From: Polytrichum commune
Taxonomy: Eukaryota; Streptophyta; Polytrichopsida; Polytrichales; Polytrichaceae
Assembly (NCBI GenBank): GCA_950295325.1
Contig: OX485806.1
Location: 21,392,001 to 21,456,000 of the forward strand
Length of the DNA: 64,000 bases
Direction of reading: 5' to 3'
The notes under the pieces were generated by a model. The model saw only the letters and a list, made by a program, of their open reading frames with translations. It was not told the DNA's origin and did no database searches. Position 1 is the first letter of the stretch. Every line of letters begins with the position of its first letter. This document shows positions 1 through 36,032 of this stretch, piece by piece. Made by a program: the position numbers and the translations under genes.

Positions 1-1181
1 GAGATGTCGGTTAGTACGGTCTCGTTGTCAGACCAAACCACCAATGTCTTCCACACCTTTAGCTTCTCCTTTTGGTTATTGGGGTCGTCCCACTCGGTCA
101 TCAGCTGAATTTTTTTAGAGGCCTCCACACTGTGCTGGCCGTCAATCAGCCAGAAGTCGCCTTTGCATATTGTCGGCCACATTTCAGGTGTCGGCATTCT
201 CTTCAGGCCTTGGGGCATGACAACAATTGTCTGCATGTCGTCTTTGAATTGCCCTCCCAAGATCTGAGCGACCATCCAGTCGACGTAGGCGTCCTCCTTA
301 GCTCGGACACACTTCTCAGGTGGCGCAAGGTGGCACTGTGCAATGTTCACCTCGAACTTGAAGTCCCTGCCCATGAAGAAGCAATGCAGGCACTTCGTCT
401 CGAAGTTATCATTGATTTTCTGTATCTCGCCTGCATCCACCTCTTGGCCAGGTTTCGGCATCCGCAGCTCCGGGGAAATTGGCTCGGTGGTCATGACGGA
501 GGACTCTCTCGCCCTCTTCGACGGGGTCGTCTGCCGGTTTCCGGACGGCGTGGGCGTCTCGTTGTCAGCCGGCGTTCCTGTAGTGCTAGTCCGTCTGGAG
601 TCTGTAGGGACCGGACGTGGCTTCCTCACAGTTTGGGGTCTGGACGACCCTGCGCCTTCTTCCGCCGTTGCCTTACGCCTCACAGGCTGCTGCGTTTTGG
701 CTTTACTTTGCAGCGCCTTGTTGAGGACCGTGATAGCCTGTTTCAATTTTGTAAACCTACTTGCAACCTTCGTGTTGGTTACATTGCCATCTATGAAAAT
801 TGTCTCCGGTTTAATTGTTTCAGGCTCCACGCATGACTCCTTGGCGTATATGGTGTCGAATGACTCGGAGAACTGGTGCATGAACATGTGGGCGTTCTGC
901 ACGGCGGAGTTCTCGAGAATTACGTCCACGTAATCTCCGAGGGCTTGGACGGACGCAACCTCCCATCCTGTCAACGTTGTCCAAGTGTGGTTCTCGTGGG
1001 TCCCTACTTTTACCACGAACAGGAGCTTAAACTGGGAGCCCTTTACAACCTGAACTGACCACGCAAGGACGAGCCCATCCTTGGGCACGTATGAGTCATC
1101 CTGGGGAGTTTCATACTCCTGCCATATTACGTCTGGCGCGAGCATAAAGAACCTTTCTCCAGGTATCTTCTTGGGGGCCAT
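1..1181 (-). CDS. DGQH-motif (ParB/DndB-like) protein, N-terminal 393 residues, runs off window
   Basis: An uninterrupted reading frame runs from an ATG at 1181 leftward to the window edge with no stop, giving 393 codons plus two bases. The protein begins MAPKKIPGERFF. Residues about 1-150 look globular. Residues about 165-245 form a Pro/Thr/Arg/Ser-rich basic linker, which would suit a nuclear protein. The rest is globular again and contains WLIDGQHSVEASK, with D347, G348, Q349 and H350. A DGQH motif after a hydrophobic strand is typical of ParB-like/DndB (DGQHR) folds, which in bacteria act in DNA or nucleotide-dependent processes; the role here is unknown. The bases just before the ATG on the coding strand read TTACAG, a good splice acceptor, so an upstream 5' exon is possible and the palindrome array 1205-1745 may lie in a 5' intron or leader. 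The sense-strand frames of the same interval are shadows. I am confident that this is coding, less so of the family. Confidence 0.62.
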   Translation of the reverse strand, partial: MAPKKIPGERFFMLAPDVIWQEYETPQDDSYVPKDGLVLAWSVQVVKGSQFKLLFVVKVGTHENHTWTTLTGWEVASVQALGDYVDVILENSAVQNAHMFMHQFSESFDTIYAKESCVEPETIKPETIFIDGNVTNTKVASRFTKLKQAITVLNKALQSKAKTQQPVRRKATAEEGAGSSRPQTVRKPRPVPTDSRRTSTTGTPADNETPTPSGNRQTTPSKRARESSVMTTEPISPELRMPKPGQEVDAGEIQKINDNFETKCLHCFFMGRDFKFEVNIAQCHLAPPEKCVRAKEDAYVDWMVAQILGGQFKDDMQTIVVMPQGLKRMPTPEMWPTICKGDFWLIDGQHSVEASKKIQLMTEWDDPNNQKEKLKVWKTLVVWSDNETVLTDI

Positions 1182-1204: not shown

Positions 1205-1745
1205 TTAGTTTCGGTCGATCGACCTAAAGTAGTCGACAATGCATTTAGCATTTGATGGAATGGAACAAATGTATTTTATTGACCATCCCGAATTCAAGGT
1301 TTGGGTCGATCGACCGAAACCTTGACCACTTGGTGGCTCGTATTCTTTAAATGTTGAGGCTACAGTGTTTGGGTCGAGCGACCCAAACATTTCATTAATT
1401 TTAAAGCTGATTTCAAGTGTTTCAGTAGATTTGAAATTGGGGTTTGGGTCGAGCGACCCGGACATGAGGCTCTGGGGTTTGGGTCGAACGACCCAAACAT
1501 GAGGCTCTGGGGTTTGGGTCGCTCGACCCAAACATTTTATTAATTCTTAATCTGGTTTCAAGTGTTTTTTTATATTTTGAATTGGGGTTTGGGTCGAGCG
1601 ACCCAAACATGAGGTTGCAATGTTTGGGTCGCTCGACCCAAACATGAGGCTTTGGGGTTTGGGTCGATCGACCCAAACATTTAATCAAATTTCAAGCTGA
1701 TTTTAAATGTTCCATTACATTTTAAATTGGGGTTTGGATCGCCTC
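1205..1745. repeat. Palindrome array 1 (half-site GTTTGGGTCG), upstream of the DGQH gene
   Basis: At least eight copies of an inverted motif, arms GTTTGGGTCG and CGACCCAAAC around two central bases (AG, CT, AA or AT), lie at about 1298-1321, 1367-1388, 1442-1463, 1477-1498, 1512-1533, 1587-1608, 1622-1643 and 1657-1678, with decayed copies near 1209-1228 and 1731-1745. Neighbouring copies are either 35 bases apart, separated by ATGAGGCTCTGGG, or separated by an AT-rich block ending in TTTGAATTGG or a variant, so there is a higher-order repeat. The array starts 24 bases before the minus-strand start codon at 1181. Short open frames across it (repeated GRSTQTP-type peptides) are read-through of the repeat and not genes. 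Confidence 0.85.
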
Positions 1746-1789
1746 CCGAAACTACTCAGTTTCCAGAGGCATGTTTAATGTTTAAACAT

Positions 1790-1811
1790 CATATACAATG
1801 CATTGTATATG
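1790..1811. repeat. Perfect 22-base palindrome
   Basis: CATATACAATG is followed directly by its reverse complement CATTGTATATG with no spacer. It lies just beyond array 1 on the upstream side of the DGQH gene. It could be a binding site or a chance AT-rich palindrome. Confidence 0.5.
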
Positions 1812-2274
1812 AAACATGATCGTAAAGGAACTGAAGCAAATTGTGTAGAGTGAAATGATATACCTTGTGTTTGAAACTCTTGTAAGCTGCTCTTACAAGC
1901 TGATTCTTATAACCAGAATCCAGAAACTCTGTGATATCACTAAAAATCAGCACTCAGAAACACCTAAAAAACACTATGAATCTCACAAGCACTCTGAAAC
2001 CCTCTCACAAACACCCTGATTCTTGCAAGCCTTCTGATCACTACTAATAACAACCTGAAATCACTCCACAACAACAACAAAAGTCTGATGTCACTCACTG
2101 CTACCACTCTACAACAAGAAAGACGCTCAACTAATCCGCTGTGAACTCACTCAATGCGTGCACTCTGGACCAAGAAGAAAGAGTGAGCATATCATCCGAG
2201 AAGAGGAGGAAAAGCACCAGAGAGGTGGAGACGAAGAATGAGAAGGAAGAAGTGAAGAGAAAGACAATGAGGAA

Positions 2275-2391
2275 AGCGGCGCTTCGCGAGAAGCGGCGCG
2301 TCCAAGCGCAAAAAAAAAAACCACAAAAGAAGCGTTTGGCACGTCGCTATGGAAAACGGCGGCGGCGTTTCCAATAGCGGCGCTTCGCGCG
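2275..2391. repeat. GC-rich inverted motif cluster (GGCGCTTCGCG)
   Basis: GGCGCTTC, GCGA, GAAGCGGCGC forms a hairpin at about 2277-2299, and AGCGGCGCTTCGCGCGG recurs at about 2375-2391. Such GC-rich hairpins occur in subterminal regions of some plant DNA transposons, but no matching ends were found, so no element is claimed. Confidence 0.4.
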
Positions 2392-2398
2392 GAGGGAG

Positions 2399-2447
2399 AG
2401 GAGAGCGAGAAAGAGAGAAAGAGAGAAAGAGGAGGGGAGAGAAGGGG
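2399..2447 (-). promoter_or_regulatory. Polypyrimidine tract on the minus strand, possible leader of the DGQH gene
   Basis: The plus strand is almost pure purine (GAGAAAGAGAGAAAGA type). Read on the minus strand it is a CT-rich tract of the kind common near plant transcription starts. Its orientation fits transcription toward the gene at 1-1181. Suggestive only. Confidence 0.22.
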
Positions 2448-3233
2448 AGAGCCGAAGGGGTTCCCCTTCAGACAATCCTGGCCATGCGATTGCTCGGGCC
2501 CATCAACGGCCCAGAAGCCTCGCGGGCCAAAACCCTGCTAGGTGTCCAAACCTCCTTGGTGGAGGTGGTTGCCCGCGCGGCTTCTGGTGTTGACACATGG
2601 CACCCTATGGACATTGCCTTCGGGATTGTCCTTGCCCGTAGGGGCGGGACATAGGACGGGTCGGCGCCTCTCTTGGCCGCCCGGCCCCGGCCTTCTAACC
2701 CAGTATGAATTCATTACCGGCAATTCAAATACATTCAAAAAGCTACATAGACTAAGGTGTTGCACAATATTTACACCATCGCCAACTCTGATTTTAATGG
2801 TGTTGAATTGAATGATCGCCCATTGGAATTGATAACATCGTAGCCATTATTTGTTTTGGTATTTCAATAATGTAGTCGTATGGAATCATATGAGATTGTT
2901 ACAAAATCTAAGAGGAGTAATTCATAATTATATTGCAATCTTCAAAGGCAATTACACGGTGCAATAATATAAATATGATAACCGTTCACATGGTTAAGGG
3001 TATTGGGTTATGTATTCTAATTTCTATGATGGTTGTTGGTGGAGGACAAAGCTCTAGACTACAATGGATACCCTAACAAGTAGCATTAGAGTGAACATTA
3101 ACATATGTACTTAGAAGCTCAAATTTGAAGTACATGGGAAAAACAAAATGATAACAAATGTATGTACTTCAACCCCATGGACTTCACATATCATATGAAG
3201 CCATTTAAACATTCAGTTTGAAGTTCGATGATG

Positions 3234-3254
3234 CCTAAACCCTAAACCCTAAAC
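3234..3254 (-). repeat. Interstitial telomere-like repeat (CCCTAAA)3
   Basis: About three units of CCTAAAC, the complement of the plant telomere repeat. Confidence 0.75.
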
Positions 3255-3964
3255 ACCACAAACCATATTAAATGAATGGCACACACGTCAAATGACAGGG
3301 CCTTGGTGCTTGTAGTTCTCAATACAAATGTATATTGTCATCAGAACATCGTAATTCATGAAAGAATGAACTCACAAATGTCATTTGTGATTTATGGTTC
3401 CATTAATGACTTCCACATACGCAGGTTAATGTCACACTTGCATGCTTGAGGATGGAGCAATGTTGTGTGCACACATTACAAACAACATATGTTCTTTTGA
3501 TTAGTGCAAATTGAAAGTTGGCCAAAATATTCAACTTTGTCATGGCATCAATTCCTTGTTTTCAAAATATAAGTCCTCATGTGAGGGTCTAAATAATTGT
3601 ATTAACTATTATATTTAGTGACTTTTAGTATATGAGGTTTTATAATATTGGCACCTCTTTTGTCAATATATTGTTTGAATTATACCACAATGTTTGACTC
3701 CAAGTAGAATAAAACCCCTTAGATATAATCTTACATATTGTCATAGTGATATTGGTAATTAGTGTATGCATTCATATTTAGTGTATCAAACTCTATATAT
3801 CCAATTTAGTTTTATCTAGTCAATGAAAGTGTTGTAGTGTCACTACATTGAATATGATAATTACACTCAATATGATAGTTAGTGTTTGATACACTTAATA
3901 AGAACGTTTAAAATAGATGTTGTTTGTATATGGGGGCATCAGTGAACCACTACTAAATTTTGGT

Positions 3965-3993
3965 GTTTAGGGTTTAGGGTTTAGGGTTTAGGG
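3965..3993 (+). repeat. Interstitial telomere-like repeat (TTTAGGG)4
   Basis: Four consecutive TTTAGGG units on the plus strand, oriented opposite to the tract at 3234. Confidence 0.8.
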
Positions 3994-4059
3994 GATAGGG
4001 TTATAACATATTAATCTATCCAATGTCAATGTATAACATTGTCTTACTCGTGAGAAGAG

Positions 4060-4555
4060 TCTTATAGGAAGGTTATAGTGAAGACGATCTTGTGTTTATT
4101 TGAGACGTTTAAACGCGATATATTGATTGGTATTGTGTTTATTCAAATAACATGAAATATTGTGGATGTTAATAGGGGCTAGGGGTCCAACTTTGGATGT
4201 TTCGCTCACTTTAGGGAATCACATATTAGTCGCTAATAAACCATCGTTCATGATGTATTTAATATATGGAATGTGATGTAAAAGTAAATCGGAGAAGCAC
4301 AACATCATGTTGTTATTCATTGTTCTCTCCACGTGTATTAGATAATGGAGGAAGATATAACAAATATTGTTTGCATAATATGAAGAAGAGTCTAATCGGA
4401 AGGTCATAGTAAATACAATCTTGATCATGTTAATATGTTATATGGGACGTTTAAACATGATATCCTAATTGGTTTTGTATTTAGTGAATGCGTATTTCGT
4501 GTTGTGGATGTTATAAGGGTTTAGGGTCCAATCTTCGATGTTTTGCTCTCACACA
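4060..4555 (+). repeat. Diverged direct repeat, two copies of about 160-170 bases
   Basis: The segments about 4060-4215 and 4385-4555 share the order GGAAGGT(T/C)ATAGT, GACGTTTAAAC, ATTGG, TTGTGGATGTTA, GGTCCAA and CACATTAG. The first copy lacks the telomere-like GGGTTTAGGG present in the second. Part of a local low-copy repeat, not coding. Confidence 0.55.
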
Positions 4556-4701
4556 TTAGTAAACTTGAAGTGAACTTGAGGATGGATTCATGTAACATTA
4601 AAAGATTGAACTAAAAAGGGACATTGGTAGTTAGTATCCCCTTAACAACGTCCACATACGTTCGTCATTGCCACTCTTGCATGCGAGATAATAGAGCAAG
4701 G

Positions 4702-4723
4702 TTCTAGGGTTTAGGGTTTAGGG
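4702..4723 (+). repeat. Interstitial telomere-like repeat (TTTAGGG)2-3
   Basis: CTAGGG followed by two TTTAGGG units. Confidence 0.7.
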
Positions 4724-5111
4724 GAGACAAATAAATAATTCTATTCATCATGACAATGGCCTCAAGCCTTGGAAACTCTCTCATAATTGCAGCCTCCAAA
4801 TGGCCCAAACCCCACCTAAATAGGTTTACACTTGAAAGCATTGAATGGAGTTGTGTTTGGGTCTACATATTGGTTAAAATATACCTTGATGATACTTGAA
4901 AAAATTAATGTGGCCGCCACCCTTCCTCCCAACGGCGTATGTCATATCCACACAAAAGAAAATAGATTAAATATCATACACTAAGTCATATGACGGCTGG
5001 GGTATGAGAGGGGCATTGATAGATGCGCATTTTCTACTATAAACAGAAAACAAGGAATTATGTCAGGAGGTTTGAAATAACCTCTGCAGGAGAACAAGGC
5101 GGGAAAGGCAT

Positions 5112-5152
5112 CCAATGAGGAAGTCGGAGAAACGGAGGTGGATAGTATAAAG
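5112..5152 (+). promoter_or_regulatory. Candidate CCAAT/TATA promoter of the DUF7869-type gene
   Basis: CCAAT at 5112 is followed by TATAAAG at 5146-5152, with a pyrimidine-rich CTCTTCTCCCACTCTTG near 5185 where transcription could start. This leaves a leader of about 800 bases that includes palindrome array 2. Placement is by consensus only. Confidence 0.35.
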
Positions 5153-5389
5153 GGACGCACCCCCCAAAAGTCTGTCCTTTTTTGCTCTTCTCCCACTCTT
5201 GAATTCGTAGAGAGAACTCTTAGTCGGATCTATACTTCAAGGTTCGTGCATGCTGCCGTTCATTAGCACTTATCCACAGCATGCAAGTTCATGAGCACCT
5301 ATCCACAGCATGGAAGCCCACCGGAAACTTTGCAATGAGCTCAAAATCATATGGGATTTCGGATTATCTGCCGCATTATCCGCCGGATT

Positions 5390-5826
5390 TTGAGGGTTTT
5401 AGTGTGACTCTTATCAGGTTTGGGTCGGTCGACCCAAACCCCTCCGCTAGTGTGGGCGGGTTTCAGCCTGACCCTGATCAGGTTTGGGTCGGTCGACCGA
5501 AACCCCTCCACTAGTGTGGGAGGGTTTCAGCCTAACCCTTACCAGGTTTGGGTCGGTCGACCGAAACCCCTCCACTAGTGTGGGCGGGTTTCAGCCTGAC
5601 CCTTACCAGGTTTGGGTCGGTCGACCGAAACCCCTCCACTAGTGTGGGCGGGTTTCAGCCTGACCCTTACCAGGTTTGGGTCGGTCGACCGAAACCCCTC
5701 CACTAGTGTGGGCGGGTTTCAGCCTGACCCTTACCAGGTTTGGGTCGGTCGACCGAAACCCCTTCACTAGTGTGGGCGGGTTTCAGCCTGACCCTTACCA
5801 GGTTTGGGTTGGTCGACCCAAACCCC
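5390..5826 (+). repeat. Palindrome array 2, seven units of exactly 64 bases
   Basis: GGTTTGGGTCGG begins at 5417, 5481, 5545, 5609, 5673, 5737 and 5801 (last copy one mismatch). Every unit is 64 bases: the palindromic core around GGTCGACC (a SalI site), then CCTCCACTAGTGTGGG and GTTTCAGCCTGACCC, with small changes. The first and last units keep the symmetric end CGACCCAAACC, matching array 1. The five inner units have CGACCGAAACC. The array ends about 165 bases before the ATG at 5992. Peptide-like open frames across it (VGRPKP repeats) reflect the repeat. Confidence 0.9.
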
Positions 5827-5991
5827 CTCCCAAAAATTTTTTTGGAACTTGCGCAAAGTATCCGGAGTTCACATTGTAGTTGTGTTGCAAATGTCTTCAT
5901 CCTCGGTGTCCCCATTGATCATGGTGTCTTGCATTTTACGATATTTGATTCTTTTGGACCCTTACATTATTTCCATGTGTGTTGAGGTTTG

Positions 5992-8900
5992 ATGTGCATG
6001 TGTGTAGGCGAAATGGAGGGAGTTGGTGGAAGAGGGGATGCCTTCTCTGAAGACATGGGCAACTCCCATTCTTCGTCTGGGGATGACCTAGACATTGTCG
6101 GGGAGGATAGTTTTGGTGACAGTGCAGATGAAGGTCATTTGGGGAGTCCTTCGCCATCTGCCCCTTCTTGCCCCACTGTGGAATGTGCTGGGCTTTCACG
6201 AGCTTCATGGGTGAATTTGGATGTGGTACTTGTTAATAACAGTGGAGTTGCTGTGGCGGAGGGTATTTGTCGTAACACACATCCACAAGATTGCATTGAT
6301 GAAAACCCCCTTGGCACCGACGATGTTGGAGTTGTTATATTGGAATCACTCGTACATTCCGAAGTAAATCCAACTCATAGGTTCTCGTTGCGAAGGTGGC
6401 CGTTGAGGAATGTGACAATTGATGGGGTTAATTTGCATGAGCATGAGCGACGACACATCCAAATCCAACAGGAGTTCCAAGCAAACATTCGGCCACGCAA
6501 AGGCCTACGGAAGTACGATACATTGGCACGTCCTACTCCGTCTGCAAATGAGTGTAAACGTCAAAGGTTGCTCTGTGAGGAGTCTATTAGAGAAGTTGCC
6601 ACAAAGGATTGTTGTGTACATCGTTGTTGCCAATTGTTCCCAAGGGATAAATTGAAGGCCGTCCGCGAGGAAATGTGGCTTGGAGATTTCCGTCTAAGAT
6701 CAACCAAAAAGCTTGATGTCCATAGGGCGATACATGTGAACGGAGCGGGTTGCAAGGTCATCACCCTTGAGAGCATAGACGTGTGTTGTACGGCATGGTA
6801 CACCATTCACGGTGTGTTGAAAACGGAATTTTATAGACAAGCCGCGTATGCCAAGGAAGGACGCCGGTCCCGTCACCATGAGAATACGGGCTTAAAGAAA
6901 CCAAGGGAAGCAACGAGACAAGCAACATCCACTCTGGCAACCATCATTGTCCCCCTTGCCGATGCAATGCCGCACAAAACACGCACACTCTCAACCGGTG
7001 AAAAGATTGTGGAGAAGGTTCTTCCTACAGGCACGAAATGGAAAGACATATTGTTGGATGTAAATGCAGTTGGCGAGAAGGCTGGGTTGGACCCTATTTC
7101 ATTGTCGAAACTGAGTGCAATAAAAAAATCAAACTTTAGCGAATACATCACAAAAAGACGAGGCGACAAATTTGCCCGTTGTTCCAAATGCGAGAAGTTG
7201 AAACGCCTTCGAGATGCACACACGATGGGGACAGAGTCCTATGCCGCACATCAAATGAACTATTTCAAGCATGTGAACATGCAAGAGGCACACCGTAATG
7301 ATTACTACACAAATAGAGCTTTGTCCATCTCTAGGCCTTTGGAGGTCCTTACAATCATCCATGACAAAATGGACCATGCCAAAACAGCCTCACCATGTTT
7401 TGCAAATCGAATAAAAGCCACGGACGGCCTTTTTAAGCTTCCTGTATCGGTTACAAGTGAATTCGATAACAATTGCATTGCATTACCTGAACACAAATTT
7501 GTGCTTTTAGGTTTGTACTTGGAGCCATAGATGTACACCATGTGAATTTTTTGGTGTTATAGTTGAATATTAAACCATTGGGTTGGCTTTGCAGGGATGA
7601 TTGCACATGGACATGGGGATGTCAAGTATGCTCATTATGCTCTTGATTTGTATCCGGCGGATTCAAACCATACGATAGGGTCATTTGCAAAGCTTTTACG
7701 TGATTTGGAGAAACCGCCGTCCTATTCATCAAGATTGTTATTTGAAAACTCGGGATCAACACCTCTATATGAAGCGGTCTTGGATGGAAGAGATGTATGC
7801 GTGCACTCCTTGCCGGAGCCACCAAGTGAAGATGTGATTGCCAAGAATTTGCCCCCAACTCTGCGTGTCCAATTGGACAATTGTGCGAAGGACAATAAAA
7901 GTAGATATGTTTTTGCATATTGGTCGTTGTTGGTTGCGAAAGGCATTTTCAAGGAGGTTTTTGTGTCCTTTCTATTGGTAGGCCACACGCACGACGATAT
8001 CGATGCATCTTTTGGGCGGTGGAGCATGAAGTTGCGCGAGGAGGATTTTCCAACAATCCCATTGTTGATGAAGTCGTACATGGATTTGGAGAACATTCCC
8101 GTCATCCCCCATATGATCGAGGAGGTTCCCGACTTCAAGGCATTTATAGAACCTTATATTCGAAGCGGAGCTCACCGTTTGATCGGACATACGAAGGCAC
8201 AACAATTTCGGTTCTACGTGCGTGACGATGGTGTCCCCGCCATGCAATACAAGTTGTTGTGCACGTCACAAGACTGGAGCCCGCTGGAGGGTCTCCTTGT
8301 ATGGCGTGTTGATGGGGAGGGAAGGACGATGTTGCTTGACGGAGAGCCTAAGCCTTGCAAACCAATACCCATGAAGAATTTGGATGACATTTGTAAAGGC
8401 ATATCAGGCTTCATACAATATTGGGAGAGTTTGAGGGTAGCGGATGTTGGTGGATCGTGTTGGCTTCGTTACGGAAGTTGGATACAATATTGGACACGTG
8501 TTCGTGGCGCTTTGGCTAACCTTCATCAAGATACACCCCTTACTTTAAGGCATGGGTTTTGGCCACAAACACGTGTCAATGTACAAGCGTCGGAGGCTAG
8601 TCTTTTGGAAAATGGAGAGGTTCGAGAGGAATTTGATGTGGACGACCATTACGTGGGGCCTGCTAGTAGTCGTCCGCCACCATCTTTCCGCATTGCAGTG
8701 GATTGTCATGAAGGTTATATGCTCATTTTGCGTCCTGGAGATGAGACATATGCAAAGCCAGTGTGGGTGGCAAGAGCTTTGTCCAATCCAAATTTTGTAA
8801 TTTCCAGCCCTCATTTTCGACAAATACAAGTAGAGTACTACCGACCGACAGCACGGAATGAAGATGTTGTTCGGCATTATACAGGCTGGGATACAAACCA

Positions 8901-9081
8901 ACACTTTCGGTGGAAGGTGGATTCTGAGCACGGTCCATCTTGGGTAGATACAGATTCCATATTCATAGCATGGAAACCACGGAAAAATCATAGTGGATCA
9001 GTGTCCATCCCTCAAAAGTACATAACTTTTGCAAAAGACAACCTTGCTCGGATCGCAGAAGAAGCAACCCACGTTGAATGA
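5992..9081 (+). CDS. DUF7869-type protein, two coding exons (5992-7456, 7595-9081)
   Basis: Exon 1 is open from ATG 5992 (an in-frame stop at 5983 precedes it; ATG 6013 is an alternative, after a TGTGTAG acceptor-like site). A 138-base intron, 7457-7594 (GTGAAT...TTTGCAG), joins codon A|GG so that KLPVSVT runs into MIAHGHGD. The product is about 983 residues. Visible features are an acidic Ser-rich N terminus, CCVHRCC near 206-212, DVCCTAWYTIHG, CSKC near 396, QLDNCAKDN with D583, and GHTHDDID at 618-625, followed by a C-terminal part with VWVARAL and YTGWD. The DN..(N) and GHTHDDID signatures are what I know from DUF7869 proteins, which are abundant in some streptophytes, oomycetes and animals and behave like repeat-associated genes. 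A DDE/RNase H-like transposase role is possible but unproven. Both exons are intact. Confidence 0.75.
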
Positions 9082-9637
9082 GAAGTTGGTAGGATTGTGT
9101 TAGCATGATTATAGTGTAATATGTAATTCGACCAATATATATTACTCATATGTGTGCTCCTCAAACTTGGGGCAAAGTTTGGGTAGAGCTTGCGAATGCT
9201 ATATTGTTTGGGGTTGGATGAATATCCATTTATTATATTTCAATACAGTTGTGAAGTTCATTTTTTTTATTAAGTTTGGGACTAAATTTTCCATTGAAGA
9301 AAAATGCATTTATTGCATGCACTTTGTATGTTGCAATGTCTATATTTTATTGACCATGCTAATAATAAAAATCATTTTATATGTTTCTTGGGTGAAACTA
9401 GTTTGGAGTGCTCTACCCAAAGTGTTTTTGTTGATGAAGTTGGTGTTGACTGCTCTACCATATGTGCTTATGTCCACACATAATAGATTTGGGATATTAG
9501 AACATATAATATATTTGAGATTGTTCGCAATATAGTTTCGGAACACGGAATGTTGTTTGATCCATATATTAATTTGAGACTAGAGAAAGTCTCAATTTAA
9601 CGAATATAATGTTATCTATGTCATGCATTTGCCATAA
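9082..9637. other. 3' flank of the DUF7869-type gene, nothing recognised
   Basis: AT-rich sequence likely to include the 3' untranslated region. An open frame at 9152-9535 is Leu/Ile-rich low-complexity translation with no domain. Confidence 0.4.
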
Positions 9638-9815
9638 AACTGACATTTAAGTATATTCAAACAAATCACTTGTCCAAAAATAATAAGAGATGTGCACTTG
9701 TGGGGACAAAAACCTCAAATGACAAAAAATTTAGCAACAATACAAATACCCCAACTTTGAATGTTTGTATTCCATGTTCACCAACCATCATATTTGTGTA
9801 GTTTTGTTATTTAGT
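9638..9815 (+). repeat. MITE family R1, left part only
   Basis: Starts AACTGACATTTAAGTATATT and shares CACTTGTGGGGACAAAAAC and CTTTGAATGTTTGTATTCCA with four full copies (11555, 19941, 27578, 35785). The right terminal inverted repeat is missing. Confidence 0.6.
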
Positions 9816-9916
9816 GTACATCATCAATGCACACAACATGCACCCAAGCCTAACCCCTCAAATCCTTGACAAACACCTACCATCAAAATCTTGCAACACT
9901 TCAAAACTAAAGCATC

Positions 9917-10677
9917 TTAGGGGGCATTCACGGTTGGGGTACTACTTTTGGGTGTCTAACGGAAAAATGACTTTTTAGGATAACTTCACATGCTTGGTAT
10001 GCTTAGATTTGTATTGTGAAGCATATTTTGGATCATACCTACATTTCATACTCCATATTGAGTACACCGACAAAGTTAATTTAGAAGGAATACTAAGGTC
10101 ATCTAAGATATCATTTTGATTCCTTAAAGGACATTTAGGAGTGTTGTCTTAATTGTTCACCTTAGGATCAAGGAATGAAAATGACAACAAGAATCAATCG
10201 AAACGATCCCAAATTTTTTCCTCACAATCATCGTTCAAGTGTGTACCAATAGAACCAAGTATGTATTGAATACCAATTGCCCAATTTTACATGAGGCACC
10301 AAACATGGCCAAAAATACATATAATTATGGCCACACGTAAAAGGAACGTCTAGTATTAGAATTGGACAAAAAAATTATATGAACGGACACATGACATTTA
10401 TACCAAGGTACTAAGATGCAAAACAGGAAATAATTGACCTCCAATGCATACCTAAATAGCAAAAAAATGCCATTGATGTGGTTTAGGGTTTAGGGTTTAG
10501 GGTGATTATTAAATAATAATAAAAATCTTTCTTGATAAAGCTTATGAACTATCTACTTATTTATGTAAATTTATTGATCAAATAATAGTAAATCATGATA
10601 AACACCAAGATCAATGCGACATAGTCCTTAAGTCCTTTGTCCCAAAAGTAGTACCTCAACCGTGAATGCCCCCCTTA
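9917..10677. mobile_element. Tourist-like (PIF/Harbinger type) non-autonomous element
   Basis: The left end GGGGGCATTCACGGTTGGGG (9920) and right end complement GGGGGGCATTCACGGTTGAG (10674) form terminal inverted repeats of about 34 bases that include GTACTACTTTTGGG. Both are flanked by TTA (9917-9919 and 10675-10677), the target duplication typical of PIF/Harbinger MITEs. The body is 755 bases with no transposase frame. A telomere-like tract lies inside. Confidence 0.75.
10481..10503 (+). repeat. Telomere-like repeat inside the Tourist-like element
   Basis: Three TTTAGGG units within the element at 9920-10674. Confidence 0.75.
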
Positions 10678-11100
10678 CAACACTTCACTTTACTAGCATT
10701 AAAATTCCATGTACTATTGTTGAAGGTAAGATTATTCCTTTGACAATTTAGTCTCAAAAAATTAGCGGTTGAAAAACTTGCCAAAAATAATCTCACATCT
10801 AAATGCATTCACTGTGGTATAAGATCTGGGTCCTTGTTGTGGGCAATTCCAACTCCACAAACAATTTCAAATGTTGAATTGGCTCGAAGATGGTCTGAAC
10901 CAATCCCCAACCAATTAGCAATTGCGAACCACAAAAATATCATTGTTGACAAGCAACACCTCTAGGACCTGAAACTAAGATATCTCCTCAAAAAACGGAG
11001 AATTCACTAAAACTAGACTAAATGAGTTGGCCAACTTGGTAGTATGGGTGGAATCACCAACAGGAGTGCATATGCTTGTTACGATAATCTGTTAAACCAA
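10678..11100. other. Intergenic, nothing recognised
   Basis: No frame, repeat or domain that I could support between the Tourist-like element and the start of tandem unit A. Confidence 0.4.
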
Positions 11101-11554
11101 TATCATATCATATATATAATGCATAATCTTATCATGAAATTTTAATATCTAATATTTAGTTTAGCCTGGAGATGTTTCCATCTTGAAGGACAACTAGACC
11201 AAATTGACATTGTATGGCGTGGAGTGAACGATAAAATTTGATAAACTGACAACTTTATATCAGATTCTCATAAAATTGTCTAGATCCAGTGATCCAAGAT
11301 CTCTAATTGTTCAATTAAAATAAGAGGTTTCAAATCTAGCTTGATTTTCACAAATTGAGGTCCTAACTCTTCACCATTTGGTTTTGTCAACAGTGATGCT
11401 CTTTAATTTGGTTTATAATGATTCCTCCTTCAACTTTAATCAGACTTGCAGAGTGAATGTGGACCCGTGCTTGGACTAGCCCTTTGGATTCGCTTTCACA
11501 AGGATTTTAATTTGATGCTTCACTCATAGCTTGATGTGAAGGAATGGGGAAGCA

Positions 11555-11781
11555 AACTGACATTCAAATATATTTTGACAAACGGCTTGTTCAAAATAAT
11601 AAGGGGTGTGCACTTGTGGGGACGAAAACATGTAATGACAATAACAAAGCAACAACAACTTTGAATGTATGTATTGCCAATCACCATATTTGTGTAGTTT
11701 TGTGATGTAGTGTTATGTCATATTAGGTGTTGGAGTTGTCCAAAATTCATTCATAAAATGAAATATACTTAAATTCTACTT
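11555..11781 (+). mobile_element. R1 MITE, copy in unit A (left)
   Basis: Left end AACTGACATTC. Right-end complement AAGTAGAATTTAAGTATATTT. Flanks AGCA and AGTA fit a 4-base target duplication with one change. Unit C lacks the insert at the matching place (near 42635). Confidence 0.65.
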
Positions 11782-12656
11782 AGTAGAAGACTTGTGTCAT
11801 TAAAGATAAGGGTGATCATGATGTTGAGGAAGTTTGCTTGAGATTACAACATGTACATTCGGATTTCACTCGGTTGTGCTCGTGCATTTTCCCACAGAAA
11901 ATACATTGGTGAAATGCATTATGCAATGCAATACAGTGGTCCTAGTGCATTCCACATGTAAGAATCTCCTAGGGTTTGTGTCTTGAGACTCACAACGGAT
12001 GTGAAAAACTTATCTTGTGTACGAAGGCAATCCACAAGGATTATGAAGGTTGGGGTGAGGGGGAAGAAAACATTTTAATAAAAAAGAAAATAAAAAACAC
12101 AAAGAAGGTTCAAAACTCTATTCCTAACTACATTCACACAGGTGCTACGAGCTAGATTCATGCGGTGTTACCTGAGACATTACTTAATATGTACATATGC
12201 GATGGGTTGGGACGGCATGGGTTCAAACTAGTTTACTACATTAGGTAAATCATGGAAAATGTTGAAAGCAAATTATGCTCACGTGTGAAATATTTCGTAC
12301 CTTGGGCGGCAATATGAAATGTTGCTCATGCAAGCACATTGAGTGCCCTATACATACAACCTTAGTTGCTACCTCACTACCCCTTCCCTTATTGAAGGCC
12401 CTACACATGCCTTATACAAGACATACTATCATGCACCCCTACTAGCTTAGCTCCGGTTGACATTAATTTTAAGAATTTGACTTCAAAATCATAACATCAC
12501 ACATCCTATCAAACGTGCTCTCTACCTAGACTTCTCTTTCACGCTAAGTTCTAAGTACAACTTCAACAAGCACAACCAGATGCAAGTTCAAATAATGAAC
12601 AGCAACAACATCCCGCCCGGCTTTTGTTCCAGAACAGCCCTAGCCTGCATTCCGAG

Positions 12657-12882
12657 CAGTGTCCGGGGAGGATTTTGGGTATAATCGGTTGACGTCCTTG
12701 TGTTTCCAAGTCCAACCGGTTACATGTTGACATCTTCTGGTTTGTCTTTATTAAATTGGGGTATATTCTCTAAATTCCTGTAAAATGATCAGTAATTTTC
12801 CTGAAGTCTTGAACTTCAACCGGTTATTTGTCGAACTCAACCGGTTAAACTGTAACTCGCAGCCGGCCCTCTCCGTTCGTTG
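12657..12882 (+). mobile_element. hAT-like MITE, 226 bases, in unit A
   Basis: Flanked by a perfect 8-base duplication ATTCCGAG (12649-12656, 12883-12890). The ends CAGTGTCCGGGGAG and complement CAACGAACGGAGAG match the hAT-type CAGTG start. The interior is rich in AACCGGTT. Unit C shows the empty site as one GCATTCCGGGTAAGAG near 43641-43656. Confidence 0.85.
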
Positions 12883-13046
12883 ATTCCGAGTAAGACTATA
12901 GTAGGTTGGACTTCCTAAGTATGCAGTCATGGCGGTAGATGGCTTGCAGGTTCATTTGCTGCAGCAATATATTACTTGATGGTCGACACCCTTAAATTGT
13001 TGGGGCCAAAGCTCGAAGACAACGCAAGACACTGGACAATCAGCTC

Positions 13047-13712
13047 ATCCACAACACCCACAACACGCCAGCTCGATCGTAGGAGAGTGTTCATGCAAGG
13101 ATGAGAAACTCCTACAGATTCTACGTACACAGAGGCATGCAAGACGAGTGATGAGTCTAAAACAAGCTGACCAAAATCTGATCATACCTCACATTATCAG
13201 TTATCAGTGTTGCTCCGGAGCTGGTCATTATTTAGATATAAATAGTTGTGAACATAAATATCTAGCTCGGAGATTCCAGTACTGCTGGACTCCGAAGAGT
13301 AAATCTCACATGGAATTCCATCAAACACTTCAGAGCCTCACCAAACCTCACAGACCAAGCTGAGCACCACAACAATGGGGTCAACACTGGCCAGATCCAC
13401 ACCGAGACTCACAATCCACTGTGTCCGTAATGAACACATTCGGCAAAACAACGAAGCTGCTATACGTACGTATATGTCACCTCAAGCTGCCACCTCCGTC
13501 CTCATATAGCTGCCTTCTGTACACCTCCCTGCTCCCGGACTTGAACAGTTTTGCTGACTTTGTTTCACGGTGGAGTTCATGCTTGCTTGCAACCTCTTGA
13601 TTTGCTGCAATTACTTATTGCCTGATACTGAATGTGGTCCAACGAAAAGCAGCTCGGAAACAACACAACACATTGAAGCTAGGTAGTTTCAAAGTGACGA
13701 GCGGGCCACCAA
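13047..13712. other. Segment kept in A and C but deleted in B
   Basis: Unit C has the matching sequence (about 43808-44460). Unit B runs straight from GGACAATCAGC to CCAATAACCCGG at about 29561. The segment has no recognisable gene. Confidence 0.65.
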
Positions 13713-14703
13713 CAATAACCCGGGGTGTGCATCAAAGTTTGGTGGTCTGCATGAGTTCGGCTACCTTTAACAAAATAGTCATTCAAGGATTTCTGAATCT
13801 GTATTGCACCGTGTGAAGAGCTTAGACCAGATTCTCCGTTCTGCACATTATTCTGCACAACTCTCCAGATTGGTTTCTGAATTCAAGGTCACTGCGTGCA
13901 GAGGACCTCGCAGTCCACCACCACCTGCAAAGTGGTGTGCACCTCATCCACAGCAAAGTCTGAGCCTGGATTAGTCTGCAGTACATCAAACACATGAAGA
14001 AGTCAGATCACTACATGCATCAAAGGGAAGTCAGTAATTCTCACGTATTCAACACAGAATGTATCTATCTGTAGCACTTTCTGTAGCACGTCCTGCATGA
14101 ATCAGCCCTAGTTTGGAGCTGCTTTGGTACTGTAGGCATTCCTTAAGCCTTTAGGTTTAATAAAACTTTATAAATGTCTCTTAGAAGTGAAAACAATTAC
14201 ATCCCTAGGGGGTGAGGGTGGTAACCACTGCTTCAGAAAAACCGCTTCTAAAAACAAAGTTTCAAAAACATCGACAGTTGAAGGTGCCAACCATTTCCCA
14301 AGTCAGACACAAATGGCATCAGTGGGTTCTTCTCGACGCCCTCTTTCCAAGCATGTTGTTCCCCTTCGGGAACCGATAAAATTATAAAAACCTACAAAGC
14401 ATTATAAGGGAGAAGTGGTTTAGAGATAGGTGTTCTACCGCTGGGAGGATCAGTTGCACCCCAAGTAATACAATCAGAATTCGCCTAAACAGGCTAACAT
14501 TTCCCGCTTGGACTATGTATCCTTCAGAATGCTAGTAGTCTAAGACGTCAATGACTTATTAAATCCAGAGACCATGTAATATACAAAACATTGAACTGCC
14601 GGGAATGGATCATCACATGTGTAAATGACATATCCCATAGATCCTTCAAAATTATGTCGAATTCATCATTAAGATCATGACCAGAGCATGTAAAATATTA
14701 AAT

Positions 14704-17138
14704 TTATACCTGGCCATCCAGGCTGTATGACGCGGCAAACGTCACTGTGGAGATGTCGAGATGGACCATCTGAGGCCGGCAATGGCAGCTTGCGTTGATC
14801 GCACTCGATAGAAATCCAAGAAAGAGACGATGAAGACCGCGAGCCTCCTCGGGGCTGTGGATGATGATCGACATTTGACCGAGGCCCGATACATGCACAC
14901 GCACACTGGCAGAGAAGTGAGCAGGAGGCATTGCGGGCAAGAAGTTTCGTGATTGACGTGCTGTTTTCAGTTCTTCCAGAATCTCTTCCACCCGGCCCTC
15001 CAATAACAGGATGCGATTTGTGGCTTCCAACACCACGGACGCCTTGTCTGTCTGTAGGATCGAGCAAGTCATCACATGACGAGTCAAGCAAGCAGTCCAC
15101 CCCAACAAGTTAACACTCAAGATGGTAATGTTATGTGCATCGAGATGCAAAGGTTATGGCTAAGCGGATTACAACAAGGGAGAAAATCGTAAGATGATAA
15201 TGAAGATGGTAATGAACCGATCGGTGTGCATGACAGAGAAATTAGGTACTTATCGTGACTCGTTAAGAAAGGTGCAAGGGAGAAAGTGTGAAGTTAAGGA
15301 TTACAATGGTCATTGACTAACCTATCGGCGCGCAACGGAAAACAAAAGTTATGCTACAGCAAATTGCTAGGGAGACAATACGAACTTAGAATCAAGATGG
15401 TAACATGAAACCGATCGGTGTGCTTAGACGCACCAAGGTTATGGTTAAGCTAATTGCAACAAGGGACAAAACGCGAAGTTTTCAAGAATCCATTTGGCAA
15501 CAAACCGATAGTTGTGCATCGACAAACCAAGGCTATGATTAAGCAAACTGCAACAAGGGAGAAAATGCGAAGATCAAAAGAGTTGAGATGGTCGTAAACA
15601 ATCGGTGAAGCATTGACATACAGAGGTTATCGCTATGAAAATTGCAATAAGGAAGAAAATGCCCACAAAATGAGGAGTCGACGGTTTGAGCAGACAAGAT
15701 TATACCCTCGCGGAAATTTCCGAAATCTCCGGCTGGAACAGCTCACGCAATGTATCGTGGAGAACGATTATCGCCTGACGGCGTCCGCTTTCGAGCAATA
15801 TGTGGATTCCTGTCTGCGACGCAGGGAGTCTGGCGGTGGGAGCCTTCTTCTTAAGCCGGGCATTCACTGTCTTCCGTAACCCCAGCACGGATCTTTCAGT
15901 GCATCTGCTTTTCTTCTGTTGGGTCCGCTTCGTTGGTCCAACTGTGTCTTGTTTCTGCTGACGTACGTCGACTCCGTCACTATTGGCAGTCGTGGTGGCC
16001 AAACCAGGCGGTAAGGTGGTTAGCCGCTGTTCTTGTGAAGGGACTTCAATCTCACTACTCCCCATAAAGTGCTGCTGACCTGGAATAGAACAGACCTTTA
16101 GAAACATATCGACGTGGGCCTCACGAACATAGACATTTTATGTGAGTACTCTCGAAGTGTGTTCGCCATACAGATCGATGACATAAATGATGGAGCACGC
16201 AATTGTTATGGCGCTCGCAAATTCTTCCCACCTCAGACACCTCACTCATCCTCACATTTGACAAACTTATTCGGAGGTCCTTAAACCTTAGCGCCCATAC
16301 ATTACAGAAAAATTGCGAAACGGCGAAAAGCATTAGTTTTTAGCTGCTGTGCAATCGGTCACAAAGACACGACTGTGGGACCATTGTGTGTTTAACATTG
16401 CGTCACATATCCTACAGTCAAATCTACAAGCAGGTTCAGAGTCGAAATTTTAGCATCACATAACATTGCTTATGTCGTCGTTGTTCTTTCTGCGAACCTG
16501 TAGAAGAAGCTTCATCAGAATAATCACCGAACGAGACGCATCACTTGCAACAGCGCATCGGTGCTAGCTGCTTTTACACAGCTTGCACAGATTCGGTGAA
16601 CCTCAAACCTTCCGAGGGTTAGCCACCTTCGAATATTCAACAGAGAACATCTCACACCCCACTTACACTCATTATCGACTGCATTATCGACGAAGTTTCC
16701 ACCGACATTAAAGCAAAGTGCATCTCTCTGGGCGAAATCGCGGCCCTGCTGCCTGCGCAAGGGTAGCCAACGTGTGCCTACAGGCTGAGGAAAGGTATGA
16801 AACTGCTGAGCATTAATCATCAACTCCCGAGGTGGTAATATTACTGCCTCATCATGATGATCATGTGCAGGCACTGTAAGGGCAGTTTGTGCATCCCGCA
16901 CCGCCTCCGGTGGCAATATCGAAGGGCAGACGTGATCATCATTCTCCTCCGCCTCAGGTACACCAAGAATGTCCCAGCGGGCGTTAATGGCAGGCGAATG
17001 ATGCAAGTCTGGAACTCGAAAATCCTCAAGATTGACAACTTCTGTATAATCCTCACGAGGATTGTTGAACAAAGGAGCCGGCCCCATAGGGTTGACAAAG
17101 TAGAGCCTTTGTTGGCCGAATGATCCCCAATCAGGCAT
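14704..17138 (-). CDS. bHLH transcription factor with ACT-like C terminus, copy A
   Basis: Coding exons on the minus strand are 17138-16667, 16079-15706 and 15051-14710. Introns begin GTAAGT and GTATAA and end TTCTATTCCAG and CTACAG, and the three exons join in frame (396 residues; reading on gives one Val then a stop at 14704). The start is ATG 17138, because upstream frames are closed. Exon 2 ends with the basic region and helix 1 (HILLESGRR, H250, E254, R258; then LHDTLRELFQ). Exon 3 opens with helix 2 (TDKASVVLEATNRILLLE), then an ACT-like segment (SVRVHVSGLGQ, HSPEEARGL). H5-E9-R13, the E-box contact triad of bHLH proteins, is present, but the ER(E)RR core reads ESGRR. The last intron donor (CAG|GTATA) may lead to a short fourth exon. 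It should be a nuclear DNA-binding dimer; targets are unknown. Confidence 0.75.
15113..15665. repeat. Intronic minisatellite, bHLH copy A intron 2
   Basis: About six degenerate units of 80-95 bases with the recurring order AAGATGGTAA, AACCGATCGGTGTGC, ATCGACA, AAGGTTATGGTTAAGC, AATTGCAACAAGGGA and AAAATGCGAAG. They fill almost the whole intron between 15052 and 15705. Confidence 0.75.
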
Positions 17139-17367
17139 TGTCACCTGGAACTCCAACCACTTGATGCTTCACAATTTCTCCGAACAACTTCACCCTGCCA
17201 TTGCAAACCGACCATTAGCCAGATTGGAACATACAGGACAATCTTCAACATTCCAAACAGCCTTAATTAGAACCACAAACTTCACAACCGTTGACACAAC
17301 AGTAGTATCACTGGCACAAACATAGGTGAAACGGAGTGAGCAGTTGTAAGTACTGGTTGCAACTCTT

Positions 17368-17395
17368 CGAAGCCCGAAGCCCGAAGCCCGAAGCC
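17368..17395 (+). repeat. 8-base microrepeat (CGAAGCC-C), variable among units
   Basis: Four units here, about three in B (33217-33237) and two in C (near 48074). It lies upstream of the bHLH start. Confidence 0.5.
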
Positions 17396-17775
17396 TTTCC
17401 TCTTATCGGGGGGTTGGTGGGTTGGAATAAGAATGCTATGCACTGCTCTTGCAAGAGTATTGTATGTATGCGGGAACTATCAGTGCTTTCGGGGGCATCA
17501 AGATGCCACCACATCTTCCTCTTGGGCTGTGCTGATGACGGCGCTCAAAGCTGGCCTGCTATGGGATGCAAATGTAAAGTTACAACACCAAGCTCACGAG
17601 TTAGTGATGCATCCGCCACAGTCAAATGCCGTGATCGATGTAAGAAAGTGAGATTAGTTTTAGTTAATCGATAAAGGGTGCCGTAACCGTTATGTGCGGC
17701 AAGGCCCTACGTCGGGTTAAGCTTGATGAGATGATGAGCCTGCACAGCTTACATGCATCTCTGACAGAGATTGTG

Positions 17776-18000
17776 TCAGAGATGGCACGGTCTGCAATAT
17801 GCAGCAGCCACCTCCAGGTTCCGACCGCCTCCCTGGATTCTGCAACCTACTGGAGCATGCTCGGTTACCGGTTCGGTAGGTGTTTCCAGTTTCCTGATCG
17901 TTTCCAGAATCCAGATCATTGCATCATTTGCTTCACTCTTTACAACAGGCAGATATATCTTCAACTGCTGAATGCATTTCAGAACATCATTTTCCTTCAA
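17776..18000 (-). other. Exon-like open frame upstream of bHLH copy A
   Basis: The minus frame reads MKENDVLKCIQQLK, then EANDAMIWILETIRKLE, and looks helical and protein-like. Unit B keeps it open (33617-33841) with few substitutions, but A and B are so recent that this is weak evidence. Unit C breaks off here. No family recognised. Confidence 0.2.
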
Positions 18001-18039
18001 ATGAAGACAAAGTCACCTAAAGTTACTAGGTTTTGATAA

Positions 18040-19936
18040 ATATAGGAATCGTCATGCTATGTTGGAGGATAGAAAAGAACCTACTCTTCCAAAGGTTGGC
18101 ATTACCATGCTTTTATTTCATAAGTAATCACGGCCAGGGTAAGGATGACATGCTCATATTCCACATCAGTATATGAATATCGATTTTTATTTTTTCTGAT
18201 TGATTGATTGATTTATTTAATTTAGCTTCTTTCCCACGGGGGACAGAGGAACAAGTAATGTTATGGGTGATTAGATGTGCCCGTAAATCGTGATTGAGCA
18301 TCGTTGAGAATTGGATCTTAAACAGAGGAGATTGTTGCCTCCCACAAGGCATCATCGAAGTTGTTCATGACTTCTTCATAGTTGATAGCCACCTCCATGC
18401 TTTCAAAGATCTTGGCTTTGACCTCCTACAAAATTTCATCTCAACTCTAATTGTGAATCTTTAAATGAGAATGTTTGCAATTTGCGATTGCTAAGTGCAT
18501 GAGATAATTCGCGATCTGACCAACAGGTGCCCAAATTGTTTGCGGAGTTGAAATTGCTCACAACAGGGCCACTTACATACCCTTAACCATGAACAAAATG
18601 GGGTCTGGCTTTGCGATGCTTTCGACAAGTAGGAAGACAAATATAATATGAACTTTTCTCAGCCAGTTGGCAATGAAATGATGAGCAGGCTGCGGCAGAA
18701 AGAGGAAGGTCCTGGAACTCTGCAAGTTTGTCCCTTTATCAAGTACTTATCTTCTTCATTTCATGTGGAGAGATTCATCAATCAACCCTAAATCTGACAC
18801 CCTTGGAAGGACAACTGATATTAAGAGTCCATGAGTGTGAGAATGTCAAATCTACTTTCCGTATTACTCATCTTAATTTCTTCAGTGTACAGCAATGAGT
18901 AACATGTACAGTTGAAGAAAGCAGACCCCATTCACCAAATTTAGATGGTGGGAAGGCCAAAGCACTCCAGTGGATCAACTCCGCAAAACGATAAAAAATA
19001 GGTGAAGTTGAGCTCACATTTTGAGGTTCAACGTGCCTCTATTTTGTAAATCGAACTGCATGAGCCTTAGGCACCCTATACTTGGCACATGGCCAAAAAT
19101 ATCTTCAGATGCTCGAATGAAAGGGATCAAAAGTATAGAACAAGTATAATTCTTGAATTCTTACAGCTTCATAAAATGTCTTCAGGAAGATGATATTGTA
19201 CGGTTTCTGAATTGGGCAGGAAGAAATAAGATGGTTCAAATCCAATTGGAAAAATAAGGGACTTTTGTCATTCTGAGCCTTACTATATTTGAGCATCATG
19301 TGCATTTATCACCAGGAACTACAAAAGGAACATGAAATCTTGAAAAATGTTATGTTATTCAGTATATCATTTGCTATATATACAGCACTAGGTTCCTACT
19401 AAGCATAATGAACCTATTGCACCATATGTGTGGCGTTCATTAGTGTTCGCATTCATTATGTATTTTGCACCCCCTCGAATATAATTTTCTTCTTTAAAGA
19501 AGGTTTTTATACAAGCATGTCAAATAGACATCCATGATCTATGCTCCTTGCTAACAACAACAACAACAACCCCTCCCCCATTTAACTTTCTAACTCCCCA
19601 TTGCAACGACCTGTCCTAATGCAAGGCAACCATGCACTAGTACACTATAACGAAGGACAATTTCCCATATGATACAAGGCCCAACATGCTCATCCTCATG
19701 TCAATGACAACCTACATATTCTTTTCTTGCTCCTCATAGATTGACCAATTTGACACACATGTATGAAAGGACCATGTTAAAGTAGATCATATAAATGTTT
19801 AATATCCTAATAATACAAATTGGCAAATGTATGCAGAACTGCACAAGGATTCTAGACCCATGCACTTACAATGATATCTTGTCACTTGGGGATATGCTAG
19901 AAGAGAAAGTTTAGTATGACGTCTACATTCATGCAC
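18040..19936. other. Unit A spacer, nothing recognised
   Basis: Matches unit B closely (about 33880-35780). From about 19500 it also matches C (55270 on). It includes a GATT microsatellite near 18196. Open frames are short and shared only through duplication. Confidence 0.4.
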
Positions 19937-19940
19937 AATC

Positions 19941-20186
19941 AACTGACATTTTAAGTACATTTGGATAAACAACTTGTCGAAAATAATAAGGGGTGTGTAC
20001 TTTTGGGGACAAACACAACAAAAAACAATAACGCAACAATAACACAACAGCCACAACTTTGAATGTTTGTATTCCATGTTTACCAACCACCATATTTATG
20101 TAGTTTTGTGATCTAGTATTATTCATATTCATGGATGGAATTGTCCAAAATTCATGTATAAATCCAAGTATACTTTAATCCTAGTT
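19941..20186 (+). mobile_element. R1 MITE, second copy in unit A
   Basis: Left end AACTGACATTTTAAGTACAT. Right-end complement AACTAGGATTAAAGTATAC. Flanked by AATC on both sides (19937-19940, 20187-20190). Confidence 0.7.
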
Positions 20187-20190
20187 AATC

Positions 20191-23100: not shown

Positions 23101-23300
23101 CTTTGTATATTGGCTTTTGTTGGTATCAAAAAGGAACCAAGAACAAGTGGATATACAATCCTACAAATCATTTGATGATAAACTTATAAATAATAACTGC
23201 ATTAACTTTTATGAAATAAATTGTAAACTTCGATGCTTACAAGTTACATTCATGGGGTGATATAGTCTTCAACAAGTGTATTGATGAATGTTAGGATTTT
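20191..23300. other. Unit A spacer, nothing recognised
   Basis: Low-GC sequence matching B and C in blocks. Around 22283 unit A carries about 2 kb, up to 24290, that B lacks. C keeps parts of it (58215-58620), so B has probably lost it. Confidence 0.4.
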
Positions 23301-23316
23301 GCATGATACAAATGAT

Positions 23317-23780: not shown

Positions 23781-23789
23781 AGGGGTATG

Positions 23790-28945: not shown

Positions 28946-29171
28946 ATATACCCCTACTAGCTTAGCTCTGGTTGACATTAATTTTAAGAATTGGACTTCA
29001 AAATCATAACATCACACATCCATTCAAACGTGCTCTCTTCCTAGACTTCTCTTTCACGCTAAGTTCTAAGTACAACTTCAACAAGCAAAACCAGATGCAA
29101 GTTCAAATAATGAACAGCAACAACATCCCGCCCGGCTTTTGTTCCAGAACAGCCCTAGCCTGCATTCCGAG

Positions 29172-35780: not shown

Positions 35781-35784
35781 AATC

Positions 35785-36028: not shown

Positions 36029-36032
36029 AATC

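Follow-up and report, generated by a model that had tools for sequence, protein, structure and literature searches.

Repeated sites for transposon proteins are known from the CACTA/EnSpm elements, whose subterminal repeats are bound by TNPA, and in bacteria palindromes are bound by ParB/Srx proteins, with ParB-plus-methyltransferase proteins also occurring there. In the Arabidopsis VANDAL elements and their VANC proteins, according to the published accounts, a short motif has accumulated by tandem repetition, both in front of the transposase gene and within introns of the remaining genes (PMC5735166); these motifs differ between families (PMC5735166; Sasaki 2023, PMC10398659), and the VANC6 motif is also reported from AT9TSD1, an element unrelated to VANDAL (Hosaka 2017, PMC5735166).

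Here we describe palindrome arrays in a stretch of 64,000 nucleotides of Polytrichum commune (C4:21392001-21456000, on contig OX485806.1; hereafter the window), compared with a genome of 407.8 Mb in 64 contigs, of which C1 to C7 together make up 406.1 Mb. Two arrays of one palindrome stand upstream of two divergent genes, one named for its DGQH motif and the other for its DUF7869 domain, in a transposon that we call element A; the same site recurs in a second transposon, element B, beside a gene with a DGNH motif. We give a probability of about one half to the reading, drawn from sequence and from analogy, that such arrays are sites, particular to each clade, for the binding of DGxH proteins encoded by the elements themselves, which would exert a VANC-like anti-silencing with a protein unrelated to VANC. 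As in the VANDAL elements, the motif is tandemly repeated in noncoding parts and differs between families, except that two sites of element A are coding. The site is a 22-bp inverted repeat, in contrast to the 8-bp motifs given for VANC6 in that literature, and the accessory gene is of another class: DUF1985 and DUF287 were absent among Pfam matches at E up to 10 for six A frames, seven B frames, eight A2 members, and two spliced readings.

One Transposon Carries Both Genes and Both Arrays

The site, GTTTGGGTCG-NN-CGACCCAAAC, is 22 bp long and is built of two inverted 10-bp half-sites around a free 2-bp centre; the window holds 16 copies at up to three mismatches, and 100 dinucleotide shuffles held none. 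Pattern matches and their layout define array 1 at 1208..1678 (unstranded), with nine copies upstream of the DGQH gene, and array 2 at 5418..5823 (unstranded), with seven copies upstream of the DUF7869 gene. The period is 35/145 bp in array 1 versus 64 bp in array 2, and the units of array 2 end in CCCAAAC in the two outer ones (5418, 5802), whereas the five inner units have CCGAAAC. Read by eye, the first ATG of the minus-strand gene lies at 1181-1179, 26 bases from the nearest site of array 1, and that of the plus-strand gene at 5992, about 166 bases beyond array 2. The plus-strand gene matches PF25273 (DUF7869) in Pfam with an E-value of 8.4e-42. The unlike layouts of the two arrays, the distinct ends of the outer units, and the DUF7869-type label had all been proposed in an original prediction made from the window, and all of them hold.

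The two genes and the two arrays are parts of a single many-copy DNA transposon of ~17 kb, element A. The best 87 of 1864 first-look candidates for the DUF7869 protein are 96-99% identical or better, and for the DGQH protein the best 104 of 1022 candidates yielded 105 matches, at 87-97% identity over nearly the whole query (self excluded). Among the matches listed, the two genes are divergent neighbours in at least seven further places besides the window, and three of these pair-bearing copies align with it at ~94-97% in long blocks, from -5822 to about 9614 in window numbering. The element is bounded by a terminal inverted repeat (TIR) of 25 bp, AACACTATATTCGTTAAATTGAGAC (starting AACACTATATTCG), for which the genome has 1045+1043 matches at up to three mismatches and the backward control 0. 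Two copies were fetched with both ends; they measure about 16.8 and 17.2 kb, and each is flanked by a target-site duplication (TSD) of 4 bp, AAAC/AAAC in one and ATCT/ATCT in the other. Element A has in these TIRs and duplications the features of a cut-and-paste DNA transposon, and the large element carrying both genes that the prediction had offered as one possibility is borne out. The DUF7869 gene is presumably its transposase; no mention of DUF7869 was found in the literature covered, outside which Repbase, subscription journals, and preprints lie, and the element may have a name. As a large plant DNA transposon with repeated motifs and an accessory gene, element A is similar to CACTA/EnSpm elements, but its TIR does not start with CACTA, its TSD is 4 bp, and its sites are internal.

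The gene models of element A were made by eye; splice signals were read around the inferred introns. In the window the first exon of the DGQH gene (minus strand, 1..1181) extends beyond the left edge as far as about -140, with two more exons and an exon of a NIF (NLI-interacting-factor) phosphatase further left; the DGQH exon had no Pfam match at an E-value of 1 or below. On the plus strand, the DUF7869 gene has a first large reading frame at 5992..7530, without Pfam match and with a start codon that is a guess, and a second at 7567..9081, open from 7567, which carries PF25273. The right end of the element, where the 25-bp inverted repeat is present in diverged form, was placed at 9589..9613 (unstranded) by reading the sequence; the left end is missing from the copy in the window. 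A complete copy on C4 carries on its minus strand the DGQH frame, two more frames resembling exons 2 and 3, and the phosphatase frame, and on its plus strand both DUF7869 frames. The phosphatase domain (PF03031, E 1.1e-14; positions 2025-2873 of the fetched piece L003) is possibly a captured gene, and its frame may or may not belong to the DGQH transcript. About 1.5 kb at -3774 to -2278 (L001/L002) is extra in the window copy and has no counterpart in the three copies aligned with it.

Two full copies of element A carry 31 and 34 sites. In the C4 copy the 31 sites (up to three mismatches) are spread over 2,870-13,047 of 16,846 bases, so that ~2.9 kb at one end of the element and ~3.8 kb at the other are free of sites: one lies just past the frame of exon 3 and two inside it, groups occupy both inferred introns and the stretches ahead of the DGQH gene (array 1) and of the DUF7869 gene (array 2), and a solitary site lies in the spacer. 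The two coding palindromes (L003, 3612 and 3681) encode FGSxDPN in an open frame and are identical at 22/22 positions in the subfamily represented by L021. The placement of arrays upstream of both genes by the original prediction was correct and understated the extent of the sites, which also occur within the minus-strand gene, in its exon 3 frame and both of its inferred introns, and number ~11,000 genome-wide.

Conservation of the Palindrome

To describe the site as a unit, we collected 234 sites at up to three mismatches from 16 sequences (six pieces of A copies, nine loci on C1, and the window). Their flanks sort into 59 types. Across these types the 20 site positions carry 1.3-2.0 bits of information each, a height partly built in because the sites were picked by pattern; the centre has 0.4 and 0.1 bits, and the flanks have 0-0.4 bits (mostly 0-0.3), except for 0.6 at the base adjoining the site. 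Among 242 matches at up to four mismatches, 132 fit the pattern perfectly, and 75, 23, four, and eight deviate from it at one, two, three, and four positions, respectively. A comparison with subfamily L021 over the region of exon 3 and intron 2 found all seven sites identical at 20-22 of 22 positions, differing only in NN, whereas the sequence outside the sites is 71.3% identical and reaches at least 20 identities in 101 of 1573 windows of 22 columns.

Between the A subfamilies (window, L015, L021, and C4) the DGQH exons show nonsynonymous divergence (dN) of 0.11-0.15 and synonymous divergence (dS) of 1.6 or saturated, a pattern indicating that the DGQH gene is under purifying selection. The first-exon comparison of DUF7869 with L015 (94 codons, dN 0.068, dS 0.046) is short and odd, and it was excluded from the argument. 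That the palindromes are passengers, tandem repeats expanding without function, would agree with the variation of array copy number and unit between copies of element A; it is highly improbable given one conserved 22-mer in 59 flank contexts, conserved where dS is saturated and also in coding DNA.

An RNA hairpin was also considered and is not supported: among 131 base pairs off consensus in the 234 sites, 96 are broken, 35 are G-T, and none is compensated. The lack of compensated changes therefore points to a DNA site and not an RNA stem.

The Same Site in Element B and Other Sites beside Related Genes

At up to one mismatch, GGTTTGGGTCGNNCGACC is matched 11,146 times on the forward strand of the genome and 11,163 times on the reverse strand, against 2 and 5 for the backward pattern; many sites are counted on both strands, giving ~11,000 sites in the genome. 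The 100 matches at the head of the list are without mismatch, come from 8 Mb of one chromosome (C1, 0.4-7.9 Mb), and form 11 clusters in our grouping, five of element A and six of element B. The A clusters are L015 and L021, recognized by tblastn, and those at 0.616, 2.1, and 3.96 Mb, assigned by matches to DGQH, DUF7869, and the TIR. The B clusters (L013, L014, L016, L017, L018+L019, and L020) have no A protein and are similar to one another along several kilobases; a single copy, interrupted, might account for both L013 and L014. The original prediction had asked whether the arrays always sit upstream of DUF7869 or DGQH genes: they do not, and a tie to DUF7869 elements only is rejected, 6 of the 11 clusters being element B with its DGNH gene. 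The outcome that would have refuted it, arrays scattered without link to these gene families, was not seen in that form, all 11 clusters falling in two element families.

Element B is like Mutator-like elements (MULEs) and unrelated to A, with one copy spanning about 11.3 kb. Its two copies examined both have a 10-bp TSD (acttttccac and caccatggct), within the MULE range of about 8-11 bp, and share GCTATCTTATGAGCG at their ends. The transposase-like gene has no Pfam match; by eye it has a CxC motif, which we take to resemble SWIM fingers. The sites stand between two frames of this gene and just upstream of a divergent gene reading FIWDGNHRFLAW, with the DGNH motif; no DUF7869 or DGQH gene occurs in B. 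The DGNH gene was found at five of the six B clusters, the L013 stretch being only part of a copy. One B copy, in the joined piece L018+L019, also contains ~3.8 kb of 64-bp-spaced tandem array (7507-11320).

The presence of one site in two such elements bears on what reads it. Binding by the transposase (the DUF7869 protein in A, the MULE-like protein in B) in a transposition complex would agree with the array upstream of the DUF7869 gene in A, and CACTA elements use repeated sites for transposon proteins. We consider this improbable, because the sites lie kilobases from the ends, two transposase types share the site, and the locus L027 has a transposase 76-82% identical to that of B and yet another site. 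In particular, the subterminal transposase sites of the prediction are not supported, since the sites are internal in both full copies mapped (in the C4 copy at the distances given above) and the same site serves an element with another transposase. Alternatively, one element may encode the GTTTGGGTCG reader and the other may have acquired the sites, its own DGxH protein doing something else. The identical site in unrelated elements would fit this, as would the VANC6 motif in AT9TSD1 outside VANDAL in the published account (PMC5735166); we regard it as unlikely, given that element A has more sites than B (31 and 34 in its two full copies) and keeps its DGQH gene under purifying selection.

Relatives of the B protein extend the comparison. 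A search with it gave, among the matches listed, 26 further places at 44-47% identity (C-type), 21 of which were fetched, four with about 5 kb upstream and 17 with 1.5 kb; they form eight protein groups at 80% identity. A tandem array with a period of at least 61 bp stands within 1.5 kb upstream at 18 of the 21 loci (all but L032, L039, and L046). Inverted sites with a 2-bp centre are GTGTCTCGG in the seven loci of one group, GGGKTTCGG in the five loci of another group and in L033, TATTGGCGG in L046, and an imperfect GAGTCTCGG in L027; the set of types across clades, 20-22-mers, includes those of GTTTGGGTCG, GTGTCTCGG, GGGTTTCGG, and TATTGGCGG. When five types were counted over 28 fetched pieces (four from three A copies, three of B, and 21 of C), every site-bearing piece had one type only, and 15 of the 21 C-type loci had one of the four other types, none having two. 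A gene outside the fetched set, at C2:1340867, has an L033-type site 0.4-0.7 kb upstream, and two of the site types have 1832 and 303 matches genome-wide (per strand, up to one mismatch; controls 13 and 1). At L027 the DGxH domain is 45% identical to that of B, beside its similar transposase and different site, and between L016 and L027, a single pair, the DGxH protein has changed faster than the transposase (dN 0.574 vs. 0.145). No B-like transposase was seen in the stretches fetched for L026, L028, and L029.

These loci also bear on a reader from the host, a DNA-binding protein recognizing the palindrome and recruited by both elements to drive their genes. A and B do share the site while their DGxH proteins have no detectable similarity beyond the motif; we hold a host reader to be rather unlikely, however, as relatives of the B gene stand beside other sites of like design, one type per locus, each of which would need its own host factor.

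The background for tandem arrays is the window's own repeat table, in which four places in 64 kb have a period of at least 61 bp, two of them arrays 1 and 2. A pattern count found none of the five site types in window positions 9701-64000. This remainder holds a large tandem duplication (11215-25840 and 27244-41314, with a 7-kb core at 94%), of which a further, more diverged copy (~76%) lies at ~43438-48942, and a 130-bp unit in three repeats with 100% matches at 57424-57814; TTTAGGG-type repeats, which point to a plant, are also present in the window.

Candidate Readers of the Sites

The recurrence of the site in B next to the DGNH gene, and of like-designed sites beside the relatives of that gene, suggests the DGxH protein, and not the transposase, as the reader. 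A common regulator or autoregulation, both named in the original prediction, fits the sequences best, with the DGQH product as the prime suspect. The DGQH protein of element A would bind the 22-bp sites as a dimer and act on the two genes of the element, which would amount to autoregulation; by analogy with VANC proteins, which bind their motif in VANDAL elements and cause loss of DNA methylation, it would probably also counteract silencing of the entire element in a sequence-specific way. The ground for this proposal is the layout, which is like that of VANDAL/VANC; plain transcriptional autoregulation would look alike in sequence.

The ParB/Srx label of the DGxH proteins is a presumption from their motif. 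They resemble ParB/Srx proteins in the DGxH motif, in the inverted-repeat sites and, in B, in a DNA-methyltransferase-like region, and differ in belonging to a eukaryotic transposon, in having no Pfam ParB match (in the DGQH exon, the A frames, the B frames, and the A2 members) and no confident fold, and in that the DPPY catalytic motif was not recognized by eye in translations of the DGNH gene of B. Matches to NCBIfam were below cutoffs, and PDB sequence searches gave nothing useful. Two later exons of the DGNH gene, joined by eye, match phrog_67 (E 7.8e-8) and PF01555 (E 3.6e-4; 21 bits, below the cutoff of 26.7); the latter match begins at profile position 30, and an exon could be missing from this methyltransferase-like gene because its model was made by eye. 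Element A matched no DNA methyltransferase profile; a stretch of its exon 2/3 looks somewhat like methyltransferase motif I, a likeness that no profile supports. DndB has been assigned to the ParB superfamily (PMC10853773), the available part of that paper making no mention of DGQHR. A mobile element with a DNA-methylation-type gene is also found in the retrotransposons with DNA methyltransferase (DNMT) genes of dinoflagellates and charophytes; these differ in that the enzymes are C5 cytosine methyltransferases and the elements retrotransposons, and the available part of the account describes no site array (PMC5890265). The literature on ParB- or methyltransferase-like genes in transposons, judged by title and start of abstract, yielded no such elements.

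Several observations weigh against a DGxH reader with a VANC-like role. The argument from the shared site is weakened because in all comparisons run the A and B proteins share only the motif: hhalign aligned nothing else (probability 1.2 and 3.9), and blastp gave short chance matches and peptides encoded by the palindrome itself; a MAFFT alignment of A with B and C failed to bring the motifs together and was set aside. Two AlphaFold predictions of the DGxH domain reached a predicted local distance difference test (pLDDT) score of 35 and 48, giving no confident fold, and Foldseek found 0 matches at E 0.001 for the second (pLDDT 48). The B and C proteins, ~45% identical, use different sites, whereas the unalignable A protein uses that of B, so that a borrowed protein or another reader may act: either A and B converged on or exchanged sites, or one borrows the protein of the other, or the site is recognized by a factor of the host. 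A further palindromic array, CCTGTGCGTT-AACGCACAGG, is present in element B, where 64-bp units make up part of it (L016, about 5377-6400). Six of the 21 C-type loci, in three of the eight protein groups (L026, L032, and L039; L028; L030 and L031), have none of the five types, and two protein groups (L033; L029 and four others) are lumped under the GGGKTTCGG pattern. As the loci counted are those that had supplied the types, only the exclusivity of types is a test. In element A, window positions 1341-3909, with most of array 1, do not align in two of the three copies, and yet an array of the same site stands there; the DUF7869 protein has no PDB sequence relative, its role as transposase being presumed; and counter-silencing itself rests on analogy.

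A wider proposal, which we consider doubtful, is that two unrelated transposon types carry bacterial-style ParB/Srx-plus-methyltransferase-like proteins that would have lost the catalytic motif and would now be sequence-specific readers, loading at palindromic arrays distributed over the element and protecting it from silencing marks, with one site per clade and a code shared by A and B; this would be an independent invention of the VANC type.

If the proposed role of the DGxH proteins is true, sequence-specific counter-silencing by transposons would not be peculiar to the Arabidopsis VANDALs, a different class of protein having come to the same use. Clades of the protein, each with a palindrome of its own, would then be a natural experiment on the joint change of a DNA-binding protein and its site, and the protein/site pairs would be usable as tools for local epigenome work.

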